A model generated the notes under the pieces. It searched no databases, had not been told where the DNA came from, and saw only the letters and a list, made by a program, of their open reading frames with translations. Below are positions 12,763 through 63,854 of a stretch of DNA of 64,000 nt, piece after piece. Every line of letters starts with the position of its first letter. The first letter of the stretch is position 1. Both the position numbers and the translations under genes were made by a program. This stretch comes from Styela clava (Eukaryota > Chordata > Ascidiacea > Stolidobranchia > Styelidae), in contig NC_135250.1 of the NCBI RefSeq assembly GCF_964204865.1, positions 24,791,395 to 24,855,394 on the forward strand, read 5' to 3'.

Positions 12763-15700
12763 TTAAAAGTTGGAATACAAATCAAATGATCTCAGATACT
12801 CGACGATTGCTTGATAGCAGAACTTGTATTGATCCTGAAATATAAATACCATTCTAATAATTGGAATATAAAAAAATCTGATAATATCCAGGGTTCGGAC
12901 TAGCAAACAGACCAATGTGGATGTTGAATTTATTGATTTCGAATACATACAAAATACTTGAATAGGAAAAAACGTAACATACGTATGACGTATGCAAGCA
13001 CGTGGTATTCATTATCACGAATTGAAATTTCGTCTTCCAGTACGAATATTATCGAGATCGGCTCAGTATAGTGCCATTAATTATTCTTCATATATATGTA
13101 AAGCTTGATTCAGATATACCAGTTGCAGGTCTTATGATCAGAGCATTCCGATTCGAGAAATATGTTGGCAACTCCACAATTAACGTGTATATAACAAAAG
13201 TGAAATAGCTGCGTATTTGTTATAAATTAGTTTCACAATATGTATTCTCATTCTTACTAAATTTTCCACCATATTTGGTCTTCCATCTCTGAGATCTTTC
13301 ACAGTTCTGAAAACATCAACTCGATTCTCACATTTCAATCGATCTATCAGATTCACCGTTGCACAGAATACACCAGTCCTGCCGATCCCGTCACTGAAAC
13401 ACATAAAATAACTTGTTAAATTTTTGGTTAGAGAATTTAATAACTTATTCTTAAATAGACTTTATTTATGTAAAGGCAATTTTTAACTTTGACTCAGAAA
13501 GCGGTTTTAGATGACCCAGTTGAAATACTGGATTTCATATGCCTTCTCACGAAAGTATTGCACTGTTTCCAAGGTCGGGGTCCACGGACCTCCAAAGGAG
13601 CCTATGAGCATGCTTAAGATGAAAACGAAATAAGCCAAGTGCTATTGTGGTCAAAAAATTTATCAATTTCATCAAAAATCAAAACGAAATACTATAAAAT
13701 AAATTTGGTTTGTTAGCTAAAATGTCGCTGTTTATGACGAACAACTGTCATTATATTTGCCTCTGTTTCTTTGTTTTCAGCGTTTATTTTCAAATGTTTT
13801 TAAAAGTGTTCCTATTGCATTTTGTATGCTTTTAGACTTAAAGTTTGTCGATTCACCTTTTTTACGCCTCGACCCGGAATGAGCAGCCGCTGATACACAA
13901 GGAGCTGCTATTTTTGCAGACCAGAATCTTTCCGCTTCGGCCATACATACCCAATTCATTACATCTTGGATGAGAGATGGGCACCGGGAGATATATAAGC
14001 TACTGCGCCAGGAATTCCACGACTTTCGATTCATGTATAAAACTAGATAGCGATCGGAGACCGCCGACTTATTGATCTGCGGTTTCGATTCCTCTGATCA
14101 AGACTCAATAGCGACACCGCGTGTCCCATCACTAATTAATCAATAACTCGCTTCCAAAATCAATAGGCTTCTGGTCCAAGATATGATGAATGTACATCAA
14201 AATGAAAATGCATCAAATGCAAAATTTGGAACAGATTCAACTTCGCTTTCGTGAGATATCGCGTAACATACGAAAGTGTCTAACAGACAAACAAACAAAC
14301 AGACAAATACCTATCAACATATTTAACCGAGCGAGACCGATAAGTAATGAGGTTTATGCCAATAGAAGGTTGGGAACCATTATATATTAGTGCAAATGCC
14401 GACATATTTTGATTGTCGATACTAACTTGTTTAGGGATGACAAAGCTGTTGCAGAACTACCATTCCGGTAAAATGAAGTGCGAATATTTTTAACAAATGG
14501 CCTCACACCTGCAATGAACGAGAGTAACTCCATTCCCAGCTGATCGAATGTTTTTCTGCATCTTATTAACAAGATCAATTATTTCTCTTCCATCTTCAGG
14601 GCAACTTGTTGATTTCCATACCGTGTAATGAAACTGAGTCACAGTTTTCTAAAAAATGACAATATTTCTCGAAGTTGTTAGAATTTCTTAATCTAATTGC
14701 AGTATTCGATTTAATACCTCACGAAATGATGTAGCGAGCGAAATGATGTAGTGAGAATAGTGATGTAGATAGACTGACGTCATCATCTGCTAGTTTTCAC
14801 AACTTCGCCTCAAACGAGCCTATATACAAGCGAGCAGGGGATATGCGAGGGGATGTAGTTTTATATTTAAGAAACTCCAGAGTTTTCCGTTTCGGGATTT
14901 CGTAACCAGTTTATTGCACCCTGAGGCATGGTGGTTGAAACCTTACAACCTGCTGACCTGCGATCAGCGGGGATAAAAATTTCATGATGAAATTCCAGTG
15001 TGTTTGTGTGTTAACTTCTAGAGGGAAATAGCGTAAACTATTAGCGATAATCATTGCGACCCCGCTGTCGTCCCTGTATCATTTGTCAATAAATTCAAAG
15101 TAGAGTCATACCAATGACTCACCGATTGAGGTCCCCTGTCCACCCGGAGTTTTCTTTCTGTTATGAAACCGTCTGCCTGGTCACCAACTCTAGTTACAGA
15201 TAAGTCCTCCCATTTCATAACCTCGCCAACATTTGCAGGCCAATACTGAGCACATTGTTCCTGGAATTATATCAGAAATTAGCTCATACAGATTATTCAT
15301 ATGAACGTCAGTCAAAAAGAAAAAATTAATAAGTAAAGTTGAGTTTAAATTTAGCATTCAAGCAAAGATATTTAGATTTATTGTCGCTCCGATGCGCTAT
15401 GCACAGCCAGTAGCTGTATACTAGTATAAAATTATAGTATTATTAGTTCGCTTATTATTAAATTCAGGGCTGTTTTATTATTGATTTGATCACGAAATTC
15501 TTTGTATGTTTTTTGCTTTAATTCGTGAATTTGCGAGTCACCGAAAAAACATGGTGGATCACTTTGTGACCCGACTCGCGGGTCAGTGGTCCACCATCCC
15601 TGTTGTGTATAGACGATTGTTCTAAGTTCAAAGGACGTGGTGAAAACACAGTATATACTATGTAGCAAATGGCTTATATATTGCTAGTCCTTTGCCAAGA

Positions 15701-19600: not shown

Positions 19601-22600
19601 TCCATCATACATTAACATCTGGCATATCCATTTTCCCCTTAGCAGTGATACATTTTTTTTGAAAGTATATTGAAGGCTTATACCGCGTACGTAAGCTAAT
19701 AAATCATAGCTATTTGTTTTATACTTACATCAATATAACAGGCATTTATATATCCCGAACTTTCTGGTGATATTTTCACTCGAGTTTCATCAACTGAAAA
19801 AAGGGAAGTTCACAACTGAGTCATTGAAAATCATCACAATCATTGAAATCTCGTTAAGATGTCAAAAATATGATGCTGAGCTTTTTTATTCTTTAACCCC
19901 GACCACTCAAAATTTCTTATTGTAGTTTTACTTCAATATACTTTATTACTGAATGAGAAGCATACATGCCGGAGGTCCGATTGAATTTTAATGAACTTTT
20001 GTATTCCAATTGTGTTATTTTTGAAGTCGGGTCGAAGTCTTCTAGGTTTGACTTATAAAATCGTTATTACAAGGCGTGAAGGTTATTGAAATTTCAACGA
20101 TATGGTCAAATTGCACACAGAATCACTCTCACTAATACCACGCATGAGTTTGCCGAGTAAAATATGTCGGGTGTCTATATTCACACTGGACATTCTGGCT
20201 TATAAGTTTTCTAATTGAACACCGAGATTACTAGCGTTACTGTACAATGTATCTTAATCAGTTAAAGCATATGGATACTAAACATTAATTTCATATTATG
20301 TGATGTATCTTTTTTTTCGATCTGAAATAATGTGTACTATGAACAACGCTCAAAGACTATTGTTTTAACCCTTCTGCCCTACACAACACACCACATTAAG
20401 TAATAATTACATAGTATCGGTATCGGAATATCGGCCTTGTTGTAGTATCGGCGTATCGGTATCGGCGTTTTTAGCTGGTATCGGATCGGTATCGGTATCG
20501 GCGAAAAAAGTGGTATCGGTACATCTCTAATAACAACAAGAAGAACGAGAATATCGGTTGAAAACCGAAGACTTATCGATCGATAGTTAGGGGATCCCCC
20601 AAAACAGAAACTGCAGTTTTGATTCATCCGCTCTTGTAACTTGCGCACTGCGCATCGCACACACACACTCGGCGGGTCTCAAAATTCTCTCGCTTTACAA
20701 AAATCTAGATCACTATATCAATAATTGATTGATAACTCGCTAATTATACGACATAATTCGCCCAAAATCAATAGGATTCTGGTCCGAGATAAGATGAATG
20801 CACATGCAAAATCTGGAGCAGATTCAATCTTGCTTTCGTGAGATATCGCGTGCATCTAACAGACAAACATACAGACATACAAATACCTATCAACATACTT
20901 ACCGATTAAAATCGATAAGTAATAACAACAACAACTACATGATAATAAAAACGAGGTTCATTTCGTGTTGAATAACGTTGGCATGTTGAATAACGTTGGC
21001 CGCATAGGGCCCCTGGGAAGGATTCGTGCCGCCCACTTAAAGTTTTTATATATATAAATACGGACGTATAAAAATATTTAACATTAAAATTGCCTGGTAT
21101 GATATCAAATCTTACTAGATTTGAGGCTTCAATTTCACGCGGCTCCTCCATAAGAAAAGCACTGTAACGCCCCAAGATATGATTTTGCGGAGGGCCACTC
21201 AAGCATACAACATATGGGGCGTACAATGAGTTTTTTACCCACTGTGAAATTAATTACAGACTGTTATGATGATATACAGGCATTTATCCCCAAGTGCGAA
21301 CTGTATGAAACTCAATTTGAATTGAAGAACGCAGTTCATTTTCCCTTACTAAATAGCTTCGAGAGCAACAATATGGATTTTTATAAATATTTGGGACGAA
21401 GTCGCAAAGTTGTTGAATGCATTTGAAGAGAGATTCGCTTAATTGCAAAATTTGACAGTCTTTTAAAAATTTTGTACGCGTTCCGTTAACATTCGGGTAG
21501 AAGAGGCCCCAGAATATACGCAACTTGGATTGATGTCCAGTCACCTACGGAATTGAAACAGTAGTTTCAAGGAGATAGAAAACTTCTACAGTGAGTATAT
21601 CGATGAAGATAAGGTTTCATCCTGAGACAAATGGCAATGCGTATTGCGGAGGCAATAGGCACAACGTATATTTGCAGATCTTTCTTTTCAAAATTGAAAA
21701 TTATGAAATCGAAGCATAGGAGTAAGCTGTGGAACGGCAGTTTGACAAACCAGTTAGTTACGTCGTGAGGTATCAAAGCTAGCCGTTAATATTAAACAGT
21801 TAATTTTTCCGCCGATTTTTTATGCCGATGTACATTGCTTGAGGGTAGTGCATTTTGCGTAGAAGTTGAATTTGGTGTTATTTGTGTGCATGTTGTGTTC
21901 AGAAATCCGCAAAGGGTTGTGCAATCCAGGCGTTTGATTTAGCGACGCTCAAATTCTAAAGTAAATCGGCACCGGGCTGGTATTCAAGTTGGGTAAAAAC
22001 GTTTGTGCTCTCGAAGTATCCGTACCAAGATGGCGCACAACCGAAACATATTATGTGTACCAGATTATAGTCCAGGTTGTGCGTCATCTTGGTACAAATA
22101 CTTCCGGAGCGCCAAAACGTTTGCGTCCGCAATGAATTTCCTCATGTGAAAGTGGCCCGCGGCACTAAAAAGGTTGGACATGCCTGGTCTAAATTATACC
22201 GCTATATTGAATGCATTATGTGAGTTCGTAGAATGAGTTTCCACGAGAACCACATACCGGTAGCGTTACTAATTTGCAAACATAAACCGTGCCGTAATTT
22301 CCGGTATTTACCCTGGTATAGCGGACTGTTTTTATGATATTCCGCTTATTGAATCGTACCTGAGTATATAGAATTGTTTAGGTAGGTTAAAGTGAGCGTT
22401 TAACAAGGCCTAAGCCATAGCATCATAGAGACATAGACTATCAGTTAGCTATCCAAATAGCCCATTATTACATTTATTTCGCATTGTTACGTCATACGCG
22501 GATTTATTCGGAGTTAATGCTCGCTACATGGACTTTTTACCGGTATTGTGGATCTGTTACCGCTTACCGGTTTCGTGATACTTGTTCGGTTCAGAGGTTA

Positions 22601-25600
22601 CTTGTTACCTCGTGATACTTTATTGATTATTAAATTTTTAATCACAGCAGTGCTGTCGACGGGCTTCGTTGATATAAGGATATGAAGTAACTTGTGATAT
22701 ATAGGATGTTGGAGTAGACTACCATGACTGGATATCAAAACGCGGGGAAAATTATTACCTGAAATTGATCGAAAAACTGTGAGTTTTCTTTTTTTCTCAT
22801 TGAATTGTAAACTTCTTCCAAATCAGAAGTACTAATAGAGGTGTCAGAGGATTTTGATGGTTGAACTTTTGCCGATACATTGGCGTAGGGACCTGAATCT
22901 GTAAATAATTGTTGAATCGTGATTACAATTATTTTCATTTATGTGATCTATGCCGAGTTATATGGGTCAGCCACGTATTAGTGATGTTGAATTCAAATCA
23001 GGGTTCATATTTTTTAGGCTTGGGAATTTGTGTAGAATGTAGAGTACGATGATTCTATATATATAATATATATTTACTGTATTCTGGTAGTTTGAGATAT
23101 TAGTAATTGTGAACCCACCTCCCTCTACATTTACTTGCGTCTTTTGTTCGCTCGGCGTGCTCGCTCTGGTTTGTATTTTTGAACTCGATTTTCTGTAAAA
23201 TGACAAATACATAAATACAGAAACTCAAATATTCAAGTTACACTTTTCTAAAATTTATTTACGCATTACGCATGAAATCTTTGATGAAAATTGCAAAATA
23301 ACTTTGTTATCAAGATCACCAATTGATGGAGGTCACAACTGTGTCTGCAAGTATTTAATACCTCGTTGCAACCCATGAGAGTTTTCCTCTGCGGAATTTC
23401 ATACAAAAAGCTAGTCAAAGATTATGCATATCAGGATTGTGTATGAAATGTCCGGTTGATACCAGGTCATGGCAGTTGCAGCATTTATACTTGACAAAAA
23501 CACCCAAATTATACACATTTGACTGACTGGGTCAAAATATGAAATCATATTATTGTGGTATTGCCCACTCCTGTCACTTCGCTCGAGTGGCTAGAATGGT
23601 AAAAATCTGAGCAAAACTTACGGGATGGATGAGTCATTTTTTTCTGTCCCAGCGAAAGCCATTTTAGTATAACCATCAGTTGATTCTTCTTTATGTTGAA
23701 ATTTCCTGTCGCAAAATAAAATACGCGTGACTTCCAGACCGTTTATAATTAAGTCGTCCGGAGCAAAAGAATCAATAGAAGGCCAATTGACGGACATCGC
23801 TAAAAACTTTAAAAAGAAACGGGCGAAAGTGGTAGAAAAGTGAAAGTTGCCCTGTTCCCAAAAAATTAAAATTTGAAAACATTTGAAATTGCTTTTGCAG
23901 GGAGGCGGGGTGGTTAAAGTCAGCGAGCGGCTGAACCTTAAAAAACAAATTAAATTTCATTTGTAGGGATGTAGGGTGGTTGAAGTTGCTAGAAATCTAA
24001 AATGAATATGGGAAAAATTCTCTCTAGCGTGAGATGGGTGGTTGGAATCACCAAAGGCTGAACCCTAAAATAAAGAAGTTAATGACATTTTTCTGTAGAT
24101 AAGTGGGGTAGTTAAGGTTGCTAAATGGTTGAGCCCTAAGGGGAAGCAGTGGATGGAGTTTATAAACTTCAGCCTTCTAATGTTGTGCGTTATTATTTTG
24201 CCAAACTTTGTTGCCTTTGTAAAATCAAAACAAATCCTTACGAGGTTGATGGAGTATTTTCATGTGTTGCAGTAAACCCCACTTCAGCATAATCACCAGT
24301 CGTTGCTTCTTCATTTTGAAACTTCCTACAGCAAAATAATATATGTATATTAGCTGATTCATGTACCATTATTAGGTAATATCTTCTTTCGTTTTCAGCA
24401 TCGAAATTGGCAATAAAATGATTGTGCATAATAAGAGAGCGATGCTCAAATATATTAACACGAAGGCGAAAACAAAGAAGCTTACCGTACCTATCGCGCG
24501 TTACTGATATCAAATGAACTCCGACTTTCGCGTAGCACGTGTTCGCAAAATTAAAACGGGAGACAGCCGTCACGCTTAGCGGATTTAAAATCATGTTCCC
24601 ATGAATAAAAAATAATACAACGAAATTTTGGATGAAAATCAAATCCCATATAGGGTATATCGAAGATTTAGGAATAAATGAAAGTTGTAGCCTTCTAGAG
24701 ACAACAACAATTTTCGATAATAGAAAATTTCGAAGCATTTGGTCTAGTAGCGAAAAGCGTTTTTTCCTAACAAGAAGAAGAGGAACATTATAATAATAAC
24801 AATTCGATACATAGGTCCAGTTCGTATCCAATAAATAATCAGCAACATGAGAAGCTTTACAATACTCACGAAGCTGAGTCCACGTTATCCGGTCTTGTTG
24901 GGATAACGTCGCCCACCGAATCGATTTCGCTTGTCCCACTTTTCGCTTTGCTAAAATAACAGTATTCAATTGATATTATAAATATATTTAAAGTCAACTA
25001 ACGAAGTTTTTCACCTTTCAAATTACCTTTGAATGCGCAAATATGCGAATAATTATCGTTTATGCTCTGGAGTTACAGACTATTTTTCTAACAATATTTT
25101 GAAACACTTTCATACAAGCATTTTTATCTCCTACTGAATACCTTTTAGTAAGTCCATATATATTGTGACCAAGAACTCACCGTCGTTTTATTACTACAAC
25201 CATAATCAGCACAGCAACAAATAAGCAAGCTCCAGCTACTATTACTGCAATTATCCAAGATTGAAAACCATTTGTTTTGGCTAGAGAACAAAGAACACGT
25301 GTTAGATTTTTAAGCACGACTCTTATAAGCGTATTTGTTTAATATTTTGCGAAACTTTACTCGTTAGCAAAGTGTCGCAACGCGTTTCATCTTGTTATTT
25401 CAATGAATGGACTAGAGAAGATAGCTAAAATGTGTTTATTTGATTAGAAATTTGTTGAATTAATTTTTAATGAAAATTAATTTGGCTGTCTCACTCGAAT
25501 TTTCTAACATTTGGTATGGTTGATGTTCATGTACTAATTCGCAACTTTCAACCAGTTTACCGTAACTGAGATAAATTTGTAGATAAAATTAGGTTACCAT

Positions 25601-28600: not shown

Positions 28601-31600
28601 TTCGCAAGCATTCAAAACTGCTTTAATTAAATAATTCCTTAACTTTAGCTTGAAAGGAAATTCGACGATCCTGCCTGAGTAATCCTTCCCGTATTCCTCT
28701 ATTTATTACATACGTTACTCACTTTCAAACCTGTTACTGTTTCTGGTTTTTCATTATTCTTCCAAACCCATTGTATGGAACAGTTGGACGATAGAGATGA
28801 AGATATCACAGGTGCGGTTTTTCCATTTGTATTTGCAGTTTTGTTGTCTGAGTATTCATAATCACACATGCTTTCGGACACACAAGCCTCGACCTAATAC
28901 ACATAAACATATTGTTTTTTATGTATTTTGCTCGAGAAACTTTTCTCATAAAAACGTATTCACTATTAAACTATAAACGGTTGGTTTTTGTAGAATGTTG
29001 GTCTAAGTAAAGTTCTGAACTGTCTTATCAACCTAGTTGATCAGCTTGCGACTCTCCCACGCGATAGATTCAAAAAATCAAAACACCAACATACCGTTAC
29101 AAAATATTCTGTTGAGGCCTTCAATCCAAAAAGTTCTGTATGTTGAGGCGTGATTGATGTAGGAACCGATGAATTCCAAGAAACCTCTTTTTTGGTAGTC
29201 AAATTCCGTGCTAATATTCTAAAATAAATTAAAATAGATTATCACTGGATATAAATTTCTAGTAAATGGACAGATATTGTAGCGTTTGTAGGATATCTAA
29301 AATTAAATATTTTTATGTCAACCAAAAGTATATTCATACATTTATTATCTCAGTCATATCGGCAAAATTGCACCGTAGCTTCAGAACTCAGCCATCTACG
29401 TAAATATATCAACGTGTATCTATATCTTCTTCATTGGTATATGTTTAACGAGTAAATGATGCAGTTTTTTGTACCTGTGAATAAATCCGATAGCATTTTT
29501 GTTGGGTATCCATGTCACGATCAAACTTTGATTGCATGACGAATTGGTGACCGACGTGATTGATGGATTTCCTTCCACTAAAATATCGAAATGAATTTCA
29601 GTAATACGGATTGTGCACTTTACGAATGCAATAATATTTGATCCGAAAATAAAAGGAGCGCACGGTAATGAGACTGATAGTATCGCGTTATGGGGTCATG
29701 CAGGAACGTCCACATGATGTCCGAATTGAGAAGTAACATGGAGAAAGAACCTACATTTCAATCCACAATATTCTAGCAACAATTTTATCGCTAAAATAAT
29801 ATTATGCTAATATTGCACTCTATGGGTTATTGAGGGCATATAATTATTTTTGGTGATTTTGAGCCCAAACCGCTAATTTAGAAGCCTGTACGAAAAATAC
29901 GATCCATTTCTTTTAATGCCGTCATTTACGTGTGGTCGTCTGTTTGTTCATTATAGCAGATATCAGTTTAGTAGTTCGACGCCGTTATATTTCAATCGGA
30001 CTATTACGAATGTCCATTGTTCTGAGGAATAAATGCAAATGAAAGACCCATTGAGGAAATTTGCAACAAAATATATGATTTTCTCCCTTTTATCGTAAAA
30101 GAAGTTTACCTTTAAAATTATACTCAATACCGCTACTGTCCGTGGTCCGACAGATATATGTAGCAGAATCAGAGATTATTGCATTCTTTATATGTAATAT
30201 TGAATTATTTCCATTGATTTCTTGATAAATTCCATATTGTTGGGACGTATTCGTAACCAGCTTGAAATTTCTGTACCATTGTACCTCCATACCCGTACAG
30301 GAATCTTTTGGTGTGCAGAATATTTTTCCATTATTTAACCTAGCATTGATAGAAATGGCATCTGTGACAAACAAATAAGTAATATAATTAATACGCAATA
30401 GTAATTGGGCTGCAACCTATATTTTATCAAAAAAACTCGGAGTTTGAGATCCTATATTTCACCCAGAATTTGCTGTTTTATTTGAAATTCATTCAATTTA
30501 TTCCGCCCATCGTTCGGTTCAGTGAATGCAGTGCTTGACTTTACCGCTCACAGATACCAATGTGCATGCGACAAGTCATGTCCGTAATCCTAATTTTTCA
30601 AAGTTTATAGAATCCAAGCAGCCCACTGCAATAAAATGCATACTGGGAAACATGGAAATAGCAACGAAAAAATAGAGTTAGGTGATCAATTTCGTTTCCT
30701 ATTCCGATGCTTCTTATTTCCTAACCTCGGATGGGAAACTCAAGTCGGTATTTCTCCACTAAAATACGGAATATTTCAATTTTTATGTGAATCACAAAAA
30801 ACTATAATATCTAATACATGTTTCAATGAGTAAATTTGAGGACACACAAACGAGAGAAATATTTCACTGCAGAACTGTACATTTCTAATATTCCAAGTTT
30901 ATTCAGATATTTATGATAGGATGACAAAAGTACGAAGTACGGCATGTATAACGAGGCGCCTGGGAGACCGAGTTTTTAATAAATGCAATTTCATACTGAC
31001 TACGGCTATCGACGTAGTAATTTGTCCCTCGCGTCGACTTGTTTGAGCATTGCTTTCTTGTAGTTTTAAGCAGCGCCAACTCAGTAAATATTTAGTTGGA
31101 TGAGTTTAAATATCAATAGAAGAAGTATGCAATAAGAATGTACTTCCGTGGTATAGAAAAAAGTATTAATATATACTACAATATTTTATGATTCGGAGAA
31201 TTCGAGAATAATATTATCTAACTATGATGTCCCACTTTTTGATTAATTTACTTCCTGAATCAATGTATTGAGTCTTTATAAGAAACATAGTAGATTAATA
31301 TTATCTAACTATGATCTCTAACCTTTTGATTAATTTACTTCCTGAATCAATGTATTGAGTCTTTATAAGAAACATAGTAGATTAATATCATCTAACTATG
31401 ATCTCCAACCTTTTGATTAATTTACTTCCTGAATCAATGTATTGAGTCTTTATAAGAAACATAGTAGATTAATATCATCTAACTATGATCTCCAACCTTT
31501 TGATTAATTTACTTCCTGAATCAATGTATTGAGTCTTTATAAGAAACATAGTAGATTAATATTATCTAACTATGATCTCCAACCTTTTGATTAATTTACT

Positions 31601-39797: not shown

Positions 39798-40533
39798 TGA
39801 GACGACCACGTCTATAACTCTGTTCGCCCATATTTATTCTTACCACTTGAGTCGTTAGTGAGCAGCTGTGTAACTTTCTCTTTCTGCTGGTCTGTCAGAC
39901 TGCCGGTAGTGTAGATATTTCCTCTGTATATTGGGTTATTATTATAGTGTTTTCGTGCCGTTAATCTGTGTAATTCTTGTTGTGAAATGATATTAGTAGT
40001 ACAGGTTTACTATTTCTCCAGTTTGGCATAGCTCTGTTCACTAGTTAGCTTGTATTTAACACTTCCGTAACTAGTCTATTTTCGCAGTTTATTTCCTGTG
40101 TGATTTCCATATTTCTATGCGTATTTCCATGTATATTACGTGTTTGTCGATAAGATAGGATTTGTGTTGTATCTTTAGTGTCATACTAGTTATTCTTATG
40201 TATATCTAGGTATGTTTTACCCGGTTTTTAGTATCCCATTATAAGTAAATAGTTCATGACTGTGACGTCATAGACCAATTCCGTATCTTGTGTTACGTAT
40301 GTATCCTACGGTATTTGTACTGTGTTTTTATTTGTTTATTGTATTTCTTATTGGAGTATTTGGTTGTATTAAGTTCTCACAGGTGTATAATTAATCTAGT
40401 TAGTTAACTTAGTTACTCTGCTGTATTTGGAACCGCAAGAAGATTACTTTGTGATCGACATCTATAGCAATTACAACGTCCAAGAAGCTGGTAGAAAGAA
40501 CCTGAGTGGTGATATCAATTTTGGTACGCCACA
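39798..40533 (+). repeat. 5' LTR of the Ty3/gypsy element
   Basis: 736 bases, TGAGACGACCACG...GGTACGCCACA, with TG/CA ends. Contains the palindrome TGACGTCA (40263-40270) followed by CCAAT, a CREB/ATF-type site with a CCAAT box, probably part of the element's promoter (inference). Confidence 0.95.
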
Positions 40534-40545
40534 TATACGAATTTT

Positions 40546-40563
40546 TGGCGAGCACACGCCAGG
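40546..40563 (+). promoter_or_regulatory. Candidate tRNA primer binding site
   Basis: TGGCGAGCACACGCCAGG begins with TGG, as a primer site complementary to a tRNA CCA end must. It lies 12 bases past the LTR end, a little far from the usual 0-10. The tRNA was not identified. Confidence 0.35.
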
Positions 40564-40701
40564 ATATATTATTCGAAACAGGGACTATTAAGACTAAGCC
40601 GATTAGGTAGGCTAGTCTGTGACGGATAATATTTGGATAATAGTGGACAGATTATTGCCGATATTTTTTTTACTACTGCGTTTGCCTGATATTTTGGAAA
40701 A

Positions 40702-42246
40702 ATGGTTAAGAGAAGAAAGATTGTACCGACATCAAAGGAAGCAAAGGAGAATGAACTTTTGCATCTGCAAATACAGGTATTGAAAGCGAAACTTAAAGAT
40801 TCAGAGGAAATGCAAGAGGATATGGACAGCCGTTTGCAGCTGATGGACAGTCGTATAGAACAGATTGGAACTCAGTTGGAATCGGTTGAACTCCAGAATT
40901 CAAAAATGGGCTCGCAAATTTTCAGCATGCTGCAAGATATTTCTGGCAAGATAGAAACAGGAAAGGTTGCTGATCCCGAGAAAACCCAGCCCATGTCACA
41001 TGAACCAGATGTCAGTCTGATGACTTCAACACCAGCAGCGGTTGTTCCTAAATTACTACCTATTCTCAAGGATGATGAAATTTCGGATTTTGGATCTGAA
41101 GATGGACAGCCAGAAGGAAAACGGAACGCATTCTCACAGACAATGGAAGTAAAATTTTCGGAGGAAGCTCACGTGAGTAATTTTGTACCTGTGGTCCCTT
41201 TTCTGAGTACTAATGGTAAAGAGGGCTCTAATACTGTCAAAAAACAACCCAGGGCTAATCCGAAAATGGTTTCAGTGGCTACACAATCAGCTCCTCCAGT
41301 GAGTTCTAGCAGTGTCGCAAATGCCAACGTTAGCAATAGTGTTCTCAATAACACAGCCAATGCTACGATGATGGTGAGAAATGCCAAAAGGCCTATGTAT
41401 TTCGATGGGTCAACTGTCATGGCGTGGCCTAGTTATTTATGTCATTTTCAATTGGTTTCTAGTTATAATCAGTGGAATGATGACACTGCAGGGTTAGAAT
41501 TGGCTACTTGCATCACAGGGCAGGCTCTTAATGTGTTGAAAGATTTACCCGAAATGAAACGTACTAGCTATCGTGATATTGTGACTCATTTTAATCATTT
41601 CTTTAAACCTGCTGGAAATGAGAGTTCATACCGTACTACATTTCACTGTCGTAGGATTAAGCCAAATGAAGCGCCACGGGATTATGGTAACAAGTTGAAA
41701 GAGCTTGTTATTCTGGCTTACCCAAATCTTGATATTGCTGGTCAGGATGATCTTTTGAAATCGCAGTTTCTCGCCGGTTTAACCGATGAAAGCATGATCA
41801 AACATGTTACCATGCAACAGCCTGATAATTTTGAAAGTGCTTTGTCTCTTGCAACACTGTATTACTCTGTGGATACTAACCGCTCTGACGTTTCCAAACC
41901 GCGTATTGCGGCAGTGAAACAGAGTAATCCTGGTAATGCAGCTAACCAGCAAAACGACGTATCTTTCGAAGGCAGTATTGGCGAGCGCATTTTAGCAAAA
42001 CTGGACGAGATACTAGGACATGTGGCGCCACGCTCTAACAACAATCGCAACTTTGCTGGTACACCACGCAACCCGTGTCCTCGATGTGGTAAACATGGTC
42101 ATTGGGGTAGAGATTGCAAGGCATGTTTTAATTGCAAGCAGACTGGTCATCTTAAACGGGATTGTCCACATCTCCAGAATCCTGTTGATCCTGCAACATC
42201 TGCTTCTTCTTCGACTGCAAATTTAAACGACACTCAGCGGACTTGA
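40702..42246 (+). CDS. gag: Gag polyprotein of the Ty3/gypsy element
   Basis: 514 residues. The start codon at 40702 has A at -3. Residues 1-90 form a charged coiled coil (KENELLHLQIQVLKAKL, then SRIEQIGTQLESVELQN). A Ser/Thr/Asn-rich linker follows, then a retrotransposon gag capsid-like region at about 230-390 (PMYFDGSTVMAWPSYLCHFQ, then APRDYGNKLKELVILAYPN). Near the C-terminus are two CCHC zinc knuckles (CPRCGKHGHWGRDC and CFNCKQTGHLKRDC) at about residues 459-489, which bind element RNA. The TGA stop lies just past a frameshift signal that joins gag to pol. The frame is intact. Confidence 0.93.
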   Translation: MVKRRKIVPTSKEAKENELLHLQIQVLKAKLKDSEEMQEDMDSRLQLMDSRIEQIGTQLESVELQNSKMGSQIFSMLQDISGKIETGKVADPEKTQPMSHEPDVSLMTSTPAAVVPKLLPILKDDEISDFGSEDGQPEGKRNAFSQTMEVKFSEEAHVSNFVPVVPFLSTNGKEGSNTVKKQPRANPKMVSVATQSAPPVSSSSVANANVSNSVLNNTANATMMVRNAKRPMYFDGSTVMAWPSYLCHFQLVSSYNQWNDDTAGLELATCITGQALNVLKDLPEMKRTSYRDIVTHFNHFFKPAGNESSYRTTFHCRRIKPNEAPRDYGNKLKELVILAYPNLDIAGQDDLLKSQFLAGLTDESMIKHVTMQQPDNFESALSLATLYYSVDTNRSDVSKPRIAAVKQSNPGNAANQQNDVSFEGSIGERILAKLDEILGHVAPRSNNNRNFAGTPRNPCPRCGKHGHWGRDCKACFNCKQTGHLKRDCPHLQNPVDPATSASSSTANLNDTQRT

Positions 42247-42265
42247 GGTCTTCAGTGTCCGCTGA
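42222..42265 (+). promoter_or_regulatory. Programmed -1 ribosomal frameshift signal (gag-pol)
   Basis: The heptamer TTTAAAC (42222-42228) sits in gag phase as T TTA AAC, the canonical X XXY YYZ layout. Five bases later a 9 bp perfect stem forms: TCAGCGGAC (42234-42242) pairs with GTCCGCTGA (42257-42265) around a 14 base loop that contains the gag stop. Slipping back one base leads into the pol frame, which is open across this point. Confidence 0.85.
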
Positions 42266-45200
42266 ATTATTACTTGATGACGGACCAACAAACCAGAATA
42301 TAGACCTGAATATTTGTTCCTTACAATATGACAATAGTTGGCATGCGAAGGTACTTGTAAACAATCAACCGTTTAATTTTCTTGTAGATAGTGGTGCTAT
42401 GACTACTCTGATCGACATTTCCATCTTTGAGGCTATAGGTGGGAAAGAAGCACAATTGGCACCGCTCGAAGAATCTCTTGTTGCAGTGGGAGGGCATGAT
42501 TTATCACCACTGGGTACATTGGAGGTTGATTTATCGATTGATTCGTTTGTATCACGACGCACTGTGATTGTTGCCAACTTAGGCATGACTAATGGTATTT
42601 TAGGCATGGATTATCTCCGAGAACATGACTGTGTTCTTTACTTATCATCGGGACACATGATGATAGGGGGTCATGAAATCAAACTGTTTACTGAAAAGTC
42701 TGTACCATGTTGTCGTGTAACCGTTCGGGAAGATGTTACGATACCGCCATATTCTAAGGTTGTTATCCCTGCACAACTTAGTCTCCCATGGCCGAAAAAC
42801 ATCTCGTCAGACGTTGCTGCTCTTGTTGAACCGCTGAATTCTTCTTTCCTCGCTGATGGCGTTCAGCTGATCTCTTCTGTGGTGGACCCAGGAAAGTCCA
42901 TTGTTCCGGTACTAGCAGTGAACCAAAAAGGCAGACAACTTAAGATCGGGGCTGGATCTTTGATTGGTATTGCACACCCTCAACTAGTAGCACAGATTCA
43001 AGTTGACGAATCCGATATTCGGGTTATAGCTTCTGAATTACCAGAACATCTACATGACATGGTCAATTCCTCTGAGGATCTAACCCCGAAGCAACGTGAA
43101 CAGTTGGTCAACTTGATTTCCGAATTCCATGATGTATTTGTAGGGCTAAATGGTGAACTTGGCCGTACTTCAGCAGCAAAGCATAGGATCATCACAACCA
43201 CACCACAGCCGATTCGGCAGGCTCCTCGTCAAATGGGGTGGGCGCGTAGGAAGATAGCCGAAGAAGCTGTCGATAATATGCTGGCTCAGGGTGTCATAGA
43301 ACCCAGCGATTCCCCATATTCTTCTCCCATTGTCCTAGTTCCCAAAAAGGATGGTTCTACCAGATTTTGCGTGGATTTTAGATTGCTTAATGACGTCACA
43401 TACAAGGACGCATATCCCTTGCCGCGTATTGAGGATATCATTGAGTCCTTAAACGGAGCCCAGTGGTTCTCAACTCTTGATCTCGCAAGCGGATATTGGC
43501 AAGTGGAGGTTGATCCTGCAGACCGCGAAATGCTCGCGAATGCTCCCGCAACATTCGAACGGATGATGGACAATATCCTTGGTGATCTCCTGTGGAACGG
43601 GTGTTTTAATTTTCTTGATGATGTTTTGGCTCATGGTAGTGATTTCTCAATGGCACTCTCAAATCTTCGGGAAGTTTTTATAAGACTTCGCCGTGCCGGT
43701 TTACGATTGAAGCCCTCGAAATGTAAACTTTTCCGTCGAAGCACCTCTTATCTTGGTTATCTTATTTCATCTGAAGGTGTCTGTTGCGACCCTGGAAATG
43801 TTGCGGCTATCAAAGAATGGAAAACTCCCAACACTGTTAGTGATATTCGTAGTTTTCTTGGTACAGCGAACTACTACCGGAAGTTTGTTCAAGATTATTC
43901 AACAATTGCTGGACCTCTTATTCGATTGACCAGGAAGAATATTCCATTTGTATGGAGTAATGAATGTCAAAAGGCTTTTGAGACGTTGAAACATTGTCTG
44001 ACATCAGCTCCAATTCTTAGCTTTCCTAGAACAGTCGGCGAGTTTGTATTGGATACTGATGCCAGTGGTTTTGGGATTGGTGCAGTGTTATCTCAAGTAC
44101 AGGACGAGCATGAACGTGTACTTTCTTATGCCAGTAAGACTATGTCCAAGTCTCAACGTAGATACTGTGCTACACACCGGGAACTATTAGCTGTGGTGTG
44201 GGCTGTTCGTCACTTCAGTCATTTTCTTCTCGGGAGACCGTTCAGAATTCGCACAGATCATGCTGCTCTGAAATGGTTGATCAATTTTCGTGAACCTCAA
44301 GGAATGTTAGCAAGATGGATATTAACACTTGGCGCTTATGACTTTAAGATTGAACACAGACCTGGCGTGAAACATGGCAATGCTGATGGATTGTCACGCC
44401 AAGTTCGCAAATGCAAACGAGAAGATTGTTCTGATTGTGGTACCAATGGTGATGTGGCTGTGAGCAATGTTATTGTAAGTGCAATATCAAAACAGCCCGG
44501 TCAATCATCGTCAGACGGTTCCGATTGTAATTGGCTAGATACCTACACGGATGAGCAAATTAAATCTTGGCAAAGTGAAGATCCAGATATTTCTGCTGTT
44601 TTGAAATGGAAACAACTTACTGCTCAGAAATCTGACATTCAAGAATACATGCCTGAATCAACAGTGACCAAACGTTTAATGTCACAATGGGATTTGATTT
44701 TTGTAGATAATGGACTTCTCAATCGTCGTTGGATTCCTGATTGTAAATCGGAGGAATCGCATATCCAATTGATTGTTCCATCAAATTTGAGGCAGGATTT
44801 GTTCCATAAGCTCCATTCTTTGCGCACTGCAGGTCATCTTGGTGCCAATCGAACTTTCAAGAGTATAAGGCGCAGATTTTATTGGCCTGGTTTCAAAAGG
44901 GACATTCTTAAATGGTGCAAATTTTGCAAATCTTGTGCTTCAACAAAGATGCTTTACGGAAGAAGACAGGGAGATCTCAAACAACTTATATCTGGAGCTC
45001 CTATGGAAAGGATTGCTATTGATTTTCTTGGACCATTGCCAGTGACTGAAAATGGAAATGAACACATTTTGGTTTTGTCGGACTATTTCTCTAAATGGGT
45101 GGAATGTTTTGCTTTACCAAATCAGCGAGCTGACACCACTGCTGATGCATTGGTTACTCAATTCTTTTCGAGATTTGGGGTACCAAGAATTCTCCACTCA

Positions 45201-46052
45201 GATCAAGGAAGAGACTTTGAATCAAAGTTATTTTCAGAAATGTGTCAATTGTACGGGATTCAAAAGACTCGAACAACTCCATATCATCCTCGTTCAGATG
45301 GACAAGTTGAACGTTTCAACAGAACCATACAGCAGATGTTGAAAGCTTTTGTAAACGAGAATCGAAATGATTGGGACGATCATCTCCCATACCTTTGCAT
45401 GGCATATCGCTCCACTGTACATGATAGTACAGGATATTCACCGAACAAGTTAATGCTTGGACGAGAAATCGAGATGCCTGTTGATGTTATGTTTGGCAAA
45501 CCAGAGTCATCAACTCATCCTTGTTACACTGAGTTTGTCGAATGGTTTTCCTGTGCAACTGAAAAAGCTTTTCTTCATGCTAGGCAACATCTAAATGCTG
45601 CTGCAACCAGACAAAAGCGAAATTTTGATCTGGGTGTTAAACCACTTACTTTCCAGAGAGATGAATTGGTGTGGTATTATTATCCACCTAAGCATCGCAA
45701 GCTGAGTATTCCTTGGATTGGACCTTATCGAATTGTGGACTGTTTACCTAATCACTTGTATAGGATTCAGAAGAATTCGGGAACACGTTCTCGAATTGTA
45801 CACGTTGACAAGTTAAGACCTTACCTACATGAAGATGAAGAAGACAATGATATTAATTTAACTGGATTTGATATTTTACCTGATGTGGAACCTATTATGG
45901 AAAATGATGAGCAGATTGCTCATGATATTTTCGATGTATTACCTTTCTCTTCAAGGCCAGACACTGTACCAGAAGAAGTTACAGTTGATGCGAACTCTGA
46001 TAATGGCCAACGTACTAGGCGTAGGCCTAGATATTTGGATGATTACATTTAA
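42243..46052 (+). CDS. pol: Pol polyprotein (protease, RT, RNase H, integrase), RT core deleted
   Basis: In the -1 frame relative to gag; no ATG at its head, so it should be made as a gag-pol fusion by frameshifting. Domains in order: aspartic protease (LVDSGA near 42387), reverse transcriptase (FCVDFRLLND, FSTLDLASGYWQVEV, FLDD), RNase H (DTDASGFGIGAV, RTDHAALKW, NADGLSR), integrase zinc region (TAGHLGANRTF, CKFCKSC), and integrase core IAIDFLGP, HSDQGRDF, DGQVERFNRT with the D-35-E spacing. A GPY-type C-terminus follows (WIGPYRIVD, VHVDKLRPY). At about 43529-43533 the RT passes from DRE straight to LANAPATF. The stretch of roughly 18-20 residues that normally contains the MPFG motif is missing, in frame, so RT activity is probably lost. 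Confidence 0.93.
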   Translation: MRSSVSAELLLDDGPTNQNIDLNICSLQYDNSWHAKVLVNNQPFNFLVDSGAMTTLIDISIFEAIGGKEAQLAPLEESLVAVGGHDLSPLGTLEVDLSIDSFVSRRTVIVANLGMTNGILGMDYLREHDCVLYLSSGHMMIGGHEIKLFTEKSVPCCRVTVREDVTIPPYSKVVIPAQLSLPWPKNISSDVAALVEPLNSSFLADGVQLISSVVDPGKSIVPVLAVNQKGRQLKIGAGSLIGIAHPQLVAQIQVDESDIRVIASELPEHLHDMVNSSEDLTPKQREQLVNLISEFHDVFVGLNGELGRTSAAKHRIITTTPQPIRQAPRQMGWARRKIAEEAVDNMLAQGVIEPSDSPYSSPIVLVPKKDGSTRFCVDFRLLNDVTYKDAYPLPRIEDIIESLNGAQWFSTLDLASGYWQVEVDPADREMLANAPATFERMMDNILGDLLWNGCFNFLDDVLAHGSDFSMALSNLREVFIRLRRAGLRLKPSKCKLFRRSTSYLGYLISSEGVCCDPGNVAAIKEWKTPNTVSDIRSFLGTANYYRKFVQDYSTIAGPLIRLTRKNIPFVWSNECQKAFETLKHCLTSAPILSFPRTVGEFVLDTDASGFGIGAVLSQVQDEHERVLSYASKTMSKSQRRYCATHRELLAVVWAVRHFSHFLLGRPFRIRTDHAALKWLINFREPQGMLARWILTLGAYDFKIEHRPGVKHGNADGLSRQVRKCKREDCSDCGTNGDVAVSNVIVSAISKQPGQSSSDGSDCNWLDTYTDEQIKSWQSEDPDISAVLKWKQLTAQKSDIQEYMPESTVTKRLMSQWDLIFVDNGLLNRRWIPDCKSEESHIQLIVPSNLRQDLFHKLHSLRTAGHLGANRTFKSIRRRFYWPGFKRDILKWCKFCKSCASTKMLYGRRQGDLKQLISGAPMERIAIDFLGPLPVTENGNEHILVLSDYFSKWVECFALPNQRADTTADALVTQFFSRFGVPRILHSDQGRDFESKLFSEMCQLYGIQKTRTTPYHPRSDGQVERFNRTIQQMLKAFVNENRNDWDDHLPYLCMAYRSTVHDSTGYSPNKLMLGREIEMPVDVMFGKPESSTHPCYTEFVEWFSCATEKAFLHARQHLNAAATRQKRNFDLGVKPLTFQRDELVWYYYPPKHRKLSIPWIGPYRIVDCLPNHLYRIQKNSGTRSRIVHVDKLRPYLHEDEEDNDINLTGFDILPDVEPIMENDEQIAHDIFDVLPFSSRPDTVPEEVTVDANSDNGQRTRRRPRYLDDYI

Positions 46053-46207
46053 TTTGACTGTGATAGTGCTTTTATCATGTTTTTAACAATTCATTGTTTT
46101 GATTTTAGATAGACATTTCATTTGAGTGTATAGTTCTTTACAATTTCTTCACATTTTTATGGATTTTTAATTTTGAAGATGGAAAATTTCTTTGTAATTT
46201 CCCATCT

Positions 46208-46220
46208 GAAAAAGGGGGGA
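46208..46220 (+). promoter_or_regulatory. Polypurine tract of the Ty3/gypsy element
   Basis: GAAAAAGGGGGGA, 13 purines ending 4 bases before the 3' LTR. This is the expected primer for plus-strand DNA synthesis. Confidence 0.85.
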
Positions 46221-46224
46221 GTAA

Positions 46225-46960
46225 TGAGACGACCACGTCTATAACTCTGTTCGCCCATATTTATTCTTACCACTTGAGTCGTTAGTGAGCAGCTGTGTAA
46301 CTTTCTCTTTCTGCTGGTCTGTCAGACTGCCGGTAGTGTAGATATTTCCTCTGTATATTGGGTTATTATTATAGTGTTTTCGTGCCGTTAATCTGTGTAA
46401 TTCTTGTTGTGAAATGATATTAGTAGTACAGGTTTACTATTTCTCCAGTTTGGCATAGCTCTGTTCACTAGTTAGCTTGTATTTAACACTTCCGTAACTA
46501 GTCTATTTTCGCAGTTTATTTCCTGTGTGATTTCCATATTTCTATGCGTATTTCCATGTATATTACGTGTTTGTCGATAAGATAGGATTTGTGTTGTATC
46601 TTTAGTGTCATACTAGTTATTCTTATGTATATCTAGGTATGTTTTACCCGGTTTTTAGTATCCCATTATAAGTAAATAGTTCATGACTGTGACGTCATAG
46701 ACCAATTCCGTATCTTGTGTTACGTATGTATCCTACGGTATTTGTACTGTGTTTTTATTTGTTTATTGTATTTCTTATTGGAGTATTTGGTTGTATTAAG
46801 TTCTCACAGGTGTATAATTAATCTAGTTAGTTAACTTAGTTACTCTGCTGTATTTGGAACCGCAAGAAGATTACTTTGTGATCGACATCTATAGCAATTA
46901 CAACGTCCAAGAAGCTGGTAGAAAGAACCTGAGTGGTGATATCAATTTTGGTACGCCACA
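46225..46960 (+). repeat. 3' LTR of the Ty3/gypsy element
   Basis: 736 bases, the same length as the 5' LTR, with no difference found by eye. Ends GTACGCCACA followed by the target duplication CTAG. The TGACGTCA site recurs at 46690-46697. Confidence 0.95.
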
Positions 46961-47167
46961 CTAGGAAAAATCACCAGAAATACATACGTGTGTAGCCTAC
47001 CAAGGTACGGTAGGCCAACATGTTGTTTTCGATACCTATGATATATTCAATATGTTAATTCTTATATGAAATAAATTTTCATACAAGCACTGCGTTCCAT
47101 CATGCATTTTCATGGAGGCGATGGACCAACTGATGAATACCCTGACCCTATATCAGATTCTTATTGC

Positions 47168-48996: not shown

Positions 48997-49004
48997 CTTA
49001 TTGC

Positions 49005-51433: not shown

Positions 51434-51441
51434 GTTCCCAC

Positions 51442-52890: not shown

Positions 52891-52913
52891 GGTATGGCAA
52901 CCCTGGTTATAAT

Positions 52914-53734: not shown

Positions 53735-53742
53735 TATATAGT

Positions 53743-55960: not shown

Positions 55961-55967
55961 ATATAGT

Positions 55968-57983: not shown

Positions 57984-57989
57984 TTTATT
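57984..57989 (-). terminator. Candidate polyadenylation signal, second receptor gene
   Basis: TTTATT on the plus strand (AATAAA on the coding strand) about 380 bases beyond the stop; the first clear match downstream. Confidence 0.35.
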
Positions 57990-58367: not shown

Positions 58368-59101
58368 TTAGGCGTTGTAAGTTTCGTACGCTGATTCTTC
58401 TTGTGTTTGCTTAGTTGTCACAGGAAAAGCTTGTTCGTAACCGGCAGTTTCTTGTAGCACGTTTGAAAATGATGGTTGATAAACTGGGTCGTTGGAGAAA
58501 GTTGCTGATTAATTGAAAAAAAAAATATTTGAACAACTATAGCAGAAATATAAATTAAATTTAAAATATTGACGAACAGATAGCTCAAAGTGAGACACCT
58601 ATTCGAATAATTTCCTTTTATCACTTAGGAGCAAATGAAATAATAATGCGAAATATAACGTTTGTATGACTTAACGATACAAAAAATATTAGACACATCT
58701 TTGTCATATTTTAGTAGTCTGGGATAGGAATGACTCCTGAGAAGGAATTTTCTCGGGTTCTTCCAAATTTACTTAATTTTTCATGTTCAAATATTTTTCC
58801 ATTGATGATGAAAGGAAAGCTGGTGAATGTCATATGTACTTTTTAAATGTTTAGAATATTCTATATGTTGACAAGAAATAATATTTTGAGCGTGAAAGGG
58901 CGATTTTCGGAACTAATAAATTTTCACAACCTTTTTCTTGTATAGTTTCGTAATTATGTTCTTTCGCTTCGGCAATTTTCTTCAACTTTTTTATCTTCTT
59001 CATCAGTTTGTATATGATTAAGGCAAAGACTACGTAGAAAATCAAAGGAATAAGAAAACCGATCACAAAACTGACGATGTTGAACTCGAACGATTTCTTT
59101 T
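58368..59101 (-). CDS. Second receptor, transmembrane and tyrosine-rich tail exons
   Basis: Exon 59101-58931 enters in phase 1 and encodes a helix (FNIVSFVIGFLIPLIFYVVF, then ALIIY) followed by a lysine-rich stop-transfer stretch (KLMKKIKKLKK) and HNYETIQEK. Its donor is AAAAAG|GTTGTG. Exon 58504-58368 joins in phase 1 and supplies NDPVYQPSF, TAGYEQAF and SAYETYNA before TAA. The tail of about 65 residues holds five tyrosines after HN-YETI. YETI fits a YxxI/L motif, but spacing to the next tyrosine (15 residues) does not match a classical ITAM. They are possible SH2-binding sites when phosphorylated (inference). Confidence 0.8.
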
Positions 59102-62100: not shown

Positions 62101-63854
62101 TTAAGAAGTTTATTGTGTATATCCTAAGATTTCCTCATCATAGATTCTCTGATCTTTTTTCTTTGATTATGTCTATGTTTGGTTATTGGCCCACATTTCA
62201 CTGTTTATCTTACTAACAGTTGCCTATTATGATAAACAGAGAAAGGTGGGGTAATAGTCAACTTATAGTGTTGCGACAGTAAATTTAGTGATATAAGTTT
62301 GTAAGGACAAATTGCGTGTAAAAAAGGAATCGAGCCACTGTGGCTTCAAGTTTATCTTCTATGTCCCATTGTTTGTTTATGATTTGGATACCTCAATCTG
62401 CATTTATTAGCAAAAATCTCATTTTAAATGAGTTATTGCTATCTATTTTTAGAATCCTGCGTGCAACTGATAAAATATTTAAAACCTGCTGCTTTTCCAA
62501 CACAATATCCGGTTGCATTCACTGCCTCGCCCAATCCCGAACATCGGATAACTTGTATTGATACTGTGCAGTTTCTGTTGGGTACCGGGGTAAAAGTTTG
62601 CGGCATTGATATGTTGAATGAGTCTATATGGAGAGACTGTATGTTCGATCTTGTTGCAATAGTCGTGCAATATTTCGTTACCTGGAAAATAGATGGATAA
62701 TTGAAATATATATATATATTCCGAGGACCTGTAACAAATAAACCTTAATTGAATAAGTATATAGTCGTAGTCGAAGTTTCTAGTAAGTATGAACCCTCTT
62801 GACTCTTGGATTACTCGTGGCGCTAAACCAGTGTGCCAATTACAGATAATGGACTTGGTTTCTGGGCCGCAGGAGATGTAGTGAATATCATTGGAGGATT
62901 AGCAAGTGAATACAAACAGAATAATTGGGTTCACATACTGAAATTGATGTACCGACCACAAGGAAAAAACATATGTTGCAGCATACACGGTCGCACGAAA
63001 AAGTCTTTGAACCCTTTTAAAAAGGTAATTTACAGCCTTAAACGCTAGTTTCGGCGCTAGTCTTGGTAGAAACACTAGAGTTCAGAATTCTGTAAATATT
63101 TCGGATTGATGAGTTTGAGGTATAAGTGGCTCGTTTTGCACATTACATTCAGGTAAGGATATTACGTGGGGGAATTGCGGTATTTATTTTTGCCAACGAT
63201 TCGTTACCTTCGCAGATATTTCCGACGTATATTTATTTATTTTATATCCATAAAAAATAGTCGTAATTTCAACAGGCACTAGTGGGCCGGATGAAACACT
63301 TCGGCGAGCCGTATCCTGCCCGCGGACCGTAATTAGCCCAACCGTGCGGTAAACCAAATGCGAATATGGCTTTAAATTTTATCTGAGGTAATCTATCAAA
63401 CTTCAATTTTAACGGACCGAAAGCATAGAAAGATTGGCTATCTCCACTTTAATACGATTTGATCTCACAACCAAACAGTCATGAAAACCTGCAAAGGCAC
63501 TTCTTTCAAGACCAGTTTACCCCGACCATTCAATGTTTGATTAATGAGAAAGAGTCCAAGCATGTAACCAGAATTTAATACTTCTTCGATGAGAAAAAAT
63601 TCACCCAACATGAACGTAAACTCAACAATATTGTCTCAGACTAAGTGGTCGTTTTTGTATTGCTCACGTTTTGCTCCACTCACTTTCAAATCTGTAACGG
63701 TTTCCGGTGCACTGTTATTCTGCCAAACCCATTGTATAAAACAGTCAGTTGATAATGTAGCAGATGACACGGATTCGGTTTCTCTATTTGTTGTTGCAGT
63801 TTCGTTGTCCGAATATTCGTAAAAACATATGTTTTCTGACACACAAGCTTCCAC
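58368..63854 (-). CDS. Second receptor gene: FN3 ectodomain related to the phosphatase receptor, short tyrosine-rich tail (5' part outside window)
   Basis: Eight exons seen: 63854-63684, 62681-62486, 61532-61427, 61076-60954, 60698-60528, 60396-60326, 59101-58931, 58504-58368. The gene continues past the right edge. The first six have lengths 171, 196, 106, 123, 171 and 71, exactly those of exons 28893-25624 in the phosphatase gene, with the same phases. Introns are also alignable in places (for example around 27250-27370 and 61690-61790), so the duplication is fairly recent. The last two exons encode a different membrane helix and a short cytoplasmic tail. No phosphatase exon follows. The expected product is a type I membrane receptor; whether it has the lectin and Ig domains cannot be seen here. 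Confidence 0.85.
59230..59556. mobile_element. hAT MITE, 327 bp
   Basis: Perfect 14 bp ends (CAGAGGCGTGCAAC and GTTGCACGCCTCTG) and a perfect 8 bp duplication GTTTAATG (59222-59229 and 59557-59564). A GGCCCGCGGGCC palindrome lies near the right end. It is in the intron just upstream of the transmembrane exon of the second receptor gene, and is part of why that intron (1224 bp) is longer than its counterpart in the phosphatase gene (343 bp). Confidence 0.92.
60326..63854 (-). CDS. Second receptor, FN3 and membrane-proximal ectodomain exons with furin-like site
   Basis: Six exons paralogous to those of the phosphatase receptor. Matching peptides include VEACVSENICFYEYSDNETA against [40 protein letters not shown] against [20 protein letters not shown], and [10 protein letters not shown] in both. 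The furin-like site is kept and slightly stronger (KKRRRRRD). Several N-x-S/T sites are present. The frame is open through all six and phases agree, so this is not an obvious pseudogene. The upstream end is cut by the window border. Confidence 0.87.
63270..63345. mobile_element. hAT terminus remnant
   Basis: Contains GCGAGCCGTATCCTGCCCGC then GGACCGTAATTAGCCCAACC, which reversed is a GGTTGGGCTAATTACGGTCC-type hAT end. It lies in an intron of the second receptor gene; the other end was not found. Confidence 0.4.

Follow-up and report, generated by a model that had tools for sequence, protein, structure and literature searches.

Are two neighbouring genes of the ascidian Styela clava, alike outside the cell and unlike within it, a receptor pair in their own right or members of something larger? 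The question is raised by a 64,000-nt stretch of its genome (the window, C1:24791395-24855394, which contains no N), in which a sequence-only reading had described two genes that share ectodomain exons and then part, one into two phosphatase domains and the other into a short tail with tyrosines. Gene A (minus strand, 34325-12763) and gene B (minus strand, 69172-58368, with its 5' end 5 kb beyond the window) were compared with each other, with the 324 kb in which the surrounding genes were mapped (C1:24791395-25115394) and with the whole 376.6-Mb assembly. Gene B positions are given in window numbering and run past the window end at 64,000. The exon observation was confirmed as a whole. Both genes stand in a tandem array of modular type I receptors whose heads have been exchanged between two signalling ends, and we lean towards the view that this array functions as a system of paired receptors.

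Shared exons of genes A and B

Genes A and B both encode a signal peptide, a C-type lectin domain, an Ig domain, an FN3-like stalk and a transmembrane (TM) helix. The six exons originally noticed (171, 196, 106, 123, 171 and 71 nt; exons 8 to 13, or E8-E13) have the same length and phase in the two minus-strand genes, with AG/GT borders present and protein matches down to E 3e-35. The match is not confined to these exons, since gene B, whose 15 exons give an open frame of 707 codons, reaches 69172 and 12 of the 13 ectodomain exons are equal in length (67, 202 versus 199, 117, 116, 252, 103, 124, 171, 196, 106, 123, 171 and 71 nt), the pair of 202 and 199 nt being the only exception. Identity of the heads is 88 % in lectin exons 2-3 and 79 % in the Ig-FN1-E8 block. 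After the 71-nt exon the genes part as described, both exiting in phase 1 into unrelated TM exons. The reported intron similarity held in part: upstream it is strong, around E8-E10 it is patchy, and once exons were masked the E10-to-TM introns showed none.

The lectin domain scored well above the Pfam Lectin_C cut-off of 22.6 bits in both genes (A, 76.6 bits; B, 74.8 bits). Ig matches were weak and below cut-offs in A and B, as was an fn3 match in A. Canonical C-type lectin motifs are EPN/QPD and WND; genes A and B both have QPN at the first position and WID instead of WND, which is only suggestive with regard to sugar and calcium binding. No sushi domain was matched in gene B and the public protein model P0002 at E 0.001, nor in gene A at E 1, and no charged residue was seen in the TM helices of A and B as read from the sequence.

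Head exchange between tail classes in a tandem array

Further copies of the ectodomain exons, with either tail, were found in number in the 324 kb, and A and B proved to be two neighbours in a large array and not a lone tandem pair. The 324 kb hold 13 ectodomain-bearing genes, all homologous and all on the minus strand. Four are phosphatase-tailed (A, G3, G7 and G12) and nine, interleaved with them, are short-tailed (B, G4, G5, G6, G8, G9, G10, G11 and G13); of another gene, G14, only the phosphatase part lies inside the 324 kb, the remainder being beyond. The six exon lengths recur along the array (171 nt in 13 of 13 genes, 196 in 11, 106 in 13, 123 in 12, 171 in 12 and 71 in 13) under a lenient test, for which any AG/GT pair close to the match that yields the length sufficed. 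In the mapping of the 13 genes the lectin was not matched in G10, nor FN1b in G4 and G11. A genome search with the short-class TM and tail gave 128 matches, from whose rows 49 TM loci were counted by hand; C1:24.85-25.63 Mb holds 41, and the remaining 8 lie in other places. The counts support like ectodomains on unlike tails as a repeated design and no accident of two genes. An orphan group of lectin and Ig exons was also seen at C1:25040254-25042633, with no stalk or tail found nearby, and many further phosphatase exon matches lie outside C1 (C2:10.87-11.45 Mb, C3:17.95-18.24 Mb, C10 and C6).

The 13 mapped genes are each equipped with a complete tail, of one kind only, and none has both. This bears on whether A and B are one locus with two ends, the ectodomain exons of B being sometimes spliced to the phosphatase exons of A about 35 kb downstream. 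Such a join would be in frame, as E13 of B ends and the TM exon of A starts in phase 1, and passages on Botryllus describe FcoR genes that change tail motifs by splicing (PMC12065747). However, upstream DNA, a signal peptide and a head of its own precede the phosphatase exons of gene A, and in the paralog models P0005 and P0007 the stalk runs into the short tail. We regard this splicing as very improbable, and the general case of one gene spliced into both tails was rejected on the lack of a second tail in any of the 13 genes.

Heads have been exchanged across the tail classes by recombination or gene conversion. A tree of Ig-FN1-E8 from the 13 genes has two types (support 100/100), each containing both tails, such that tail class changes four times and a single phosphatase clade is rejected (approximately unbiased test, p-AU 8e-12). 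Lectin exons 2-3 (12 genes) require three tail changes, and a single phosphatase clade is again rejected (p 1e-12). E9-E12 (13 genes) separate the tails in one change (support 97/96). The non-coding DNA was compared with exons masked. E10-to-TM introns aligned over 45-102 % among short-tailed genes and 6-93 % among phosphatase genes, with at most 10 % between classes. In the 5' DNA and lectin introns, A and B aligned over 50 % at 79 % identity, and the short-tailed G4 and phosphatase-tailed G7 over 89 % at 94 % identity; A aligned over at most 2 % with any gene other than B, and B over up to 17 % with G11 and G12. The upstream match between A and B spans about 0.8 kb above the gene A ATG.

Site patterns point the same way. 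In the quartet A, B, G7 and G5, informative sites in CTL2, CTL3 and Ig favour A with B by 60 to 1, and those in E11-E13 favour the tail classes by 27 to 0 (permutation p <= 0.0005, with the same p in six further quartets). Synonymous distances are likewise discordant within gene pairs, at 1.24 in Ig-FN1-E8 versus 0.125 in E9-E13 for G11-G13, and 1.01 in the lectin versus 0.198 in E9-E13 for B-G5. As E11-E13 side with tail class in the mapped genes, the sharing specific to A and B sits in the head. The notion of A and B as a special pair in the six exons is therefore not supported: E11-E13 follow tail class among the 13 genes, and what A and B share is found upstream, in the promoter-side DNA, lectin and Ig. 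Beyond the mapped genes, the ectodomain falls into two deep lineages, both with both tails (lectin, 17 proteins; Ig-FN1, 19 proteins; four changes each, in trees for which the program warned of long branches). This indicates that the two ends met both lineages, via tail or head exchange.

A local pattern was seen in G4 (C1:24899194-24903292) and G7 (24956705-24961000), whose flanks are 94 % identical (K 0.073) and whose lectin proteins are 80 % identical, with a lectin exon dS of 0.39. Fast evolution of the lectin exons was rejected as an explanation because synonymous sites diverge too, which fits exon-level conversion; the pattern suggests conversion confined to exons.

Signalling ends and the paired-receptor reading

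The phosphatase end appears sound in the family and defective in gene A. KNRY, WPD and HCX5R are all present in the first phosphatase domain (D1) of the five near-complete phosphatase models scanned (P0002, P0003, P0004, P0006 and P0022, five of five). In gene A the TM exon and the exons of the second domain (D2) were found as first described, but D1, with WPD and HCX5R present, is incomplete and lacks the KNRY (phosphotyrosine-loop) exon. An overlooked exon was ruled out by permissive tblastn with two paralog versions, which found none between 22759 and 19793. At the place of this exon in the paralog G7, gene A contains 735 bp of dissimilar DNA (20189-20923, minus strand) with a repeat-like match at 20719-20904. 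KNRY-exon matches occur at eight C1 places besides gene A, and the exon is kept in all four other phosphatase genes of the 324 kb. Because the exon is missing, D1 of gene A is probably inactive and the gene probably encodes a catalytically dead phosphatase. The proposal of a phosphatase as opposing partner is doubtful for gene A itself, but may apply to paralogs with KNRY, including the four of four in the 324 kb. Without this exon in gene A, the A/B pair is a poor example of the proposed system.

There is an even chance that gene A is a pseudogene and that the A/B pair is meaningless in itself. Besides the absent exon, joining 22898-22759 to 19793-19729 breaks the frame (phase 0 to phase 1), and the public model P0001 also skips the exon, starts inside the Ig domain and ends before D2. 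On the other hand, no stop or broken splice site was met in the other gene A exons, a skip to 19333-19199 preserves the frame, as in P0001, and a dead phosphatase could still bind and scaffold. The array-wide result is independent of gene A.

The short end of gene B has the several tyrosines first reported, five by our count (NYETI, VYQPS, GYEQ and AYETY), and the same TM and tail are joined to the same kind of stalk in P0005 and P0007. Motifs were scanned in 23 short tails (14 public and 9 genomic, with at least two genes counted twice), and all 23 contain YxxI/L/V. The motif [DE]GYxxΦ was found in none of the 23; [DE]GYxx[LIVM], which we take to resemble a hemITAM (a half-length relative of the immunoreceptor tyrosine-based activation motif, ITAM), was found in four of seven phosphatase juxtamembrane parts.

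The mapped structures divide each receptor into three modules: the head, comprising upstream DNA, signal peptide, C-type lectin, Ig and first FN3-like domain; the stalk, which contains a polybasic site; and the signalling end, either a receptor tyrosine phosphatase or a short tail bearing YxxI/V tyrosines. The following mechanism is proposed. Receptors with like heads would bind like ligands; Src-type kinases may phosphorylate the short tails, recruiting SH2 proteins, and phosphatase-tailed receptors at the same contact may dephosphorylate the short tails or the kinases. The response would then be set by the combination of heads that the two ends carry, with head exchange keeping the ligand range matched across both outputs. 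Gene A is probably a dead-phosphatase or decaying member, and the working phosphatase members would lie further along the array.

Several features of paired receptors were found: similar ectodomains in several genes, unlike signalling ends, and clustering with homogenisation of ectodomains across kinds. The canonical signature, in which one partner carries an immunoreceptor tyrosine-based inhibitory motif (ITIM) and the other an ITAM or a charged residue in the TM, was absent. In terms of class, the gene structures are consistent with a variant of paired receptors in which, unusually, a phosphatase is one of two outputs. The earlier pairing idea survives in its like ectodomains and unlike tails, to which cross-class head exchange is added, and loses the private A-B pair, the simple activating and inhibitory labels and, probably, a working phosphatase in gene A.

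A number of results weigh against a paired-receptor system, together with the state of D1 in gene A. No ITAM and no immunoreceptor tyrosine-based switch motif (ITSM) occurs in the 23 short tails, and the ITIM pattern occurs in four, in one of these only beside the TM; simple activating and inhibitory labels consequently do not suit most of the short tails and were rejected for these. In ten of the 41 short-class TM matches a stop, possibly in intron sequence, falls inside the aligned stretch, and the public protein models (P00xx) derive from annotation. When public models were added, E11-E13 of 15 proteins gave three tail changes, with one phosphatase clade rejected (p 1e-50; the truncated P0008 was scored as phosphatase), and the link of stalk to tail is valid only for the 13 mapped genes because the stalk of the wider family departs from tail class. 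Pairwise dN/dS, the ratio of non-synonymous to synonymous divergence, ranged from 0.11 to 0.81 in 20 pairs and three blocks wherever it was defined, and never reached 1. No sign was seen in these 20 pairs of the positive selection for which the ectodomain was to be searched; it was rejected as the driver, and the result weighs against an arms-race reading.

The same ratios, which give no evidence of diversifying selection, would be expected if the array were a plain tandem expansion of a receptor phosphatase, in which some copies swapped the phosphatase for another TM and tail, and duplication and neutral conversion took place with no pairing. All genes in the 324 kb are homologous and on one strand, recombination among repeats requires no selection, and the lectin dS of G4-G7 (0.39 versus 0.073 around) looks like plain exon-level conversion. 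However, the short tail is no debris: YxxI/V is present in 23 of 23, and the 13 other proteins retrieved have a tail region 60-94 % identical to the query. Each deep ectodomain lineage, moreover, includes both tails, which indicates that the two ends have been retained over a long divergence. We consider plain expansion rather unlikely.

With gene A as protein query, all 15 proteins returned were from Styela clava; three protein searches gave Styela proteins, one Ciona protein (P0025, 25 % identity, E 6e-27) and weaker matches, although one of the three scored only 7996 candidates and absence outside Styela is not established. No published description of this receptor family was found in a non-exhaustive literature search.

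Its phosphatase members resemble LAR, PTPRA and PTPRE in the tandem D1-D2 arrangement, in KNRY, WPD and HCX5R in D1 of P0002, and in Ig and FN3 domains outside; they differ in the N-terminal C-type lectin domain and in having short-tailed paralogs of the same ectodomain. An adhesion or gamete-recognition role, in place of an immune one, would suit this LAR-like layout of Ig and FN3 with tandem phosphatase domains. The best PDB sequence match is LAR (E 7e-122), with PTPRA at E 6e-110, and the top Foldseek matches are the PTP-sigma and PTP-delta ectodomains, with low TM-scores (0.11-0.26 by query length in the best 50 rows). The AlphaFold2 model of P0005 (mean predicted local distance difference test score, pLDDT, 69.6; predicted template modelling score, pTM, 0.41; lectin part and tail poor) supports no more than a series of beta domains and a TM helix. 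A large recombining array would nevertheless look more like recognition families than single-copy adhesion receptors, and we judge the adhesion role unlikely.

The head exchange seen here follows an evolutionary pattern known from paired receptors of vertebrates. Among these, Siglecs have opposite outputs through ITIM versus adaptor coupling. Botryllus, whose fester and FcoR loci are a further comparison, belongs like Styela to the Styelidae. In Siglec-11/16, gene conversion is described as spanning upstream DNA and binding-domain exons (PMC5701461), and the likeness is close: neighbouring genes of opposite output, with upstream DNA and first exons including the ligand-binding domain homogenised and the rest unlike. 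Siglecs differ in their sialic-acid-binding Ig heads, those of Styela being C-type lectin plus Ig; the Styela array, moreover, is large, has a phosphatase as one output and lacks a charged residue in the A and B TM helices. Ligand-binding exons of CEACAM1/CEACAM3-type pairs are described as exchanged by conversion and recombination among members with different tyrosine tails (PMC2832619). Both are clustered families trading binding exons across tail kinds, whereas CEACAM tails are ITIM/ITSM or ITAM-like and the Styela short tails have no ITAM, few ITIM and an enzyme as the other end. Excerpts on Botryllus fester and FcoR describe large polymorphic arrays with YxxI/L/V, ITIM and hemITAM tails, FcoR perhaps carrying SH2, and FcoR ectodomains of V-Ig, sushi and C2-Ig; the same excerpts mention no phosphatase-tailed member, only CD45-like phosphatases in the same tissue (PMC12065747). 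As far as these excerpts go, large ascidian receptor arrays, core YxxI/L/V motifs and variable signalling ends are common to both, but the Styela ectodomain of C-type lectin, Ig and FN3 lacks the V-Ig/sushi/C2-Ig composition.

The kinship of Styela and Botryllus makes self or microbe recognition in a solitary ascidian an obvious candidate role for the array, which can be set beside the fester and FcoR loci. Should it prove to be a paired-receptor system, a tunicate would have evolved, from quite different parts, an arrangement of like heads and opposed outputs that conversion maintains. The fuller proposal is held only tentatively: a paired system of a solitary chordate in which the counter-signal receptor is the phosphatase itself, and in which lectin heads and promoter-side DNA are shuffled between outputs along a large array, so that recombination would decouple ligand range from output in a non-vertebrate repertoire. 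Were it true, models of kinase/phosphatase balance could be tested directly with a phosphatase that is addressed by ligand and not recruited.

Exon positions and other features of the window

All exons of gene A lie on the minus strand. Exon 1 (34259-34325, 67 nt) contains the ATG and signal peptide, exons 2-4 (33807-33606, 33161-33045, 32898-32783) the C-type lectin domain (Pfam Lectin_C, E 3e-21), exon 5 (30110-30361, 252 nt) the Ig domain (Ig_3 and I-set, E 1.6e-4, under Pfam cut-offs) and exons 6-7 (29577-29475, 29218-29095) the first FN3-like domain (fn3, E 0.05, under cut-off). E8-E13 follow at 28893-28723, 28245-28050, 27025-26920, 26474-26352, 26030-25860 and 25694-25624, with a polybasic KRRRRRR stretch in E12. 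Exon 14 (25181-25280) encodes the phosphatase-class TM helix and is followed by the juxtamembrane exons 24950-24870, 24325-24242, 23705-23622, 23192-23119 (end moved 3 nt to fit the donor) and 22898-22759. Two of these, adjoining and similar 84-nt exons (24242-24325 and 23622-23705), have one tyrosine each (GDYAEV and DGYTKM), and counterparts are present in G3, G7 and G12. D1 is encoded at 19793-19729, 19333-19199, 18903-18772, 18371-18214 (WPD, HC), 17694-17559 (AGAGRTG) and 17101-17001, and D2 at 16609-16476, 16277-16201, 15852-15718, 15260-15123, 14648-14509, 13393-13258 and 12834-12763 (stop). The lectin-Ig intron of gene A contains 18 copies of an 87-bp tandem repeat, a minisatellite (31205-32771), a single unit of which was matched in a gene B intron.

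In gene B, also on the minus strand, exons 1-7 (69172-64033) lie outside the window and E8-E13 are at 63854-63684, 62681-62486, 61532-61427, 61076-60954, 60698-60528 and 60396-60326. The short-class TM helix, a basic juxtamembrane region and the YETI motif are encoded at 58931-59101, and the tail exon, with tyrosines in VYQPS, GYEQ and AYETYNA and the stop, at 58368-58504.

Between genes A and B lies an LTR-type (long terminal repeat) retroelement (39799-46961), whose ends (46961-46226 versus 40534-39799) are 97.6-100 % identical in translated pieces; this identity suggests a recent insertion. Three long uninterrupted minus-strand frames (1918-2838, 3670-4581 and 6342-7187) are 57-60 % alike in protein, and the last of them matches Band_7/SPFH (E 3e-36).

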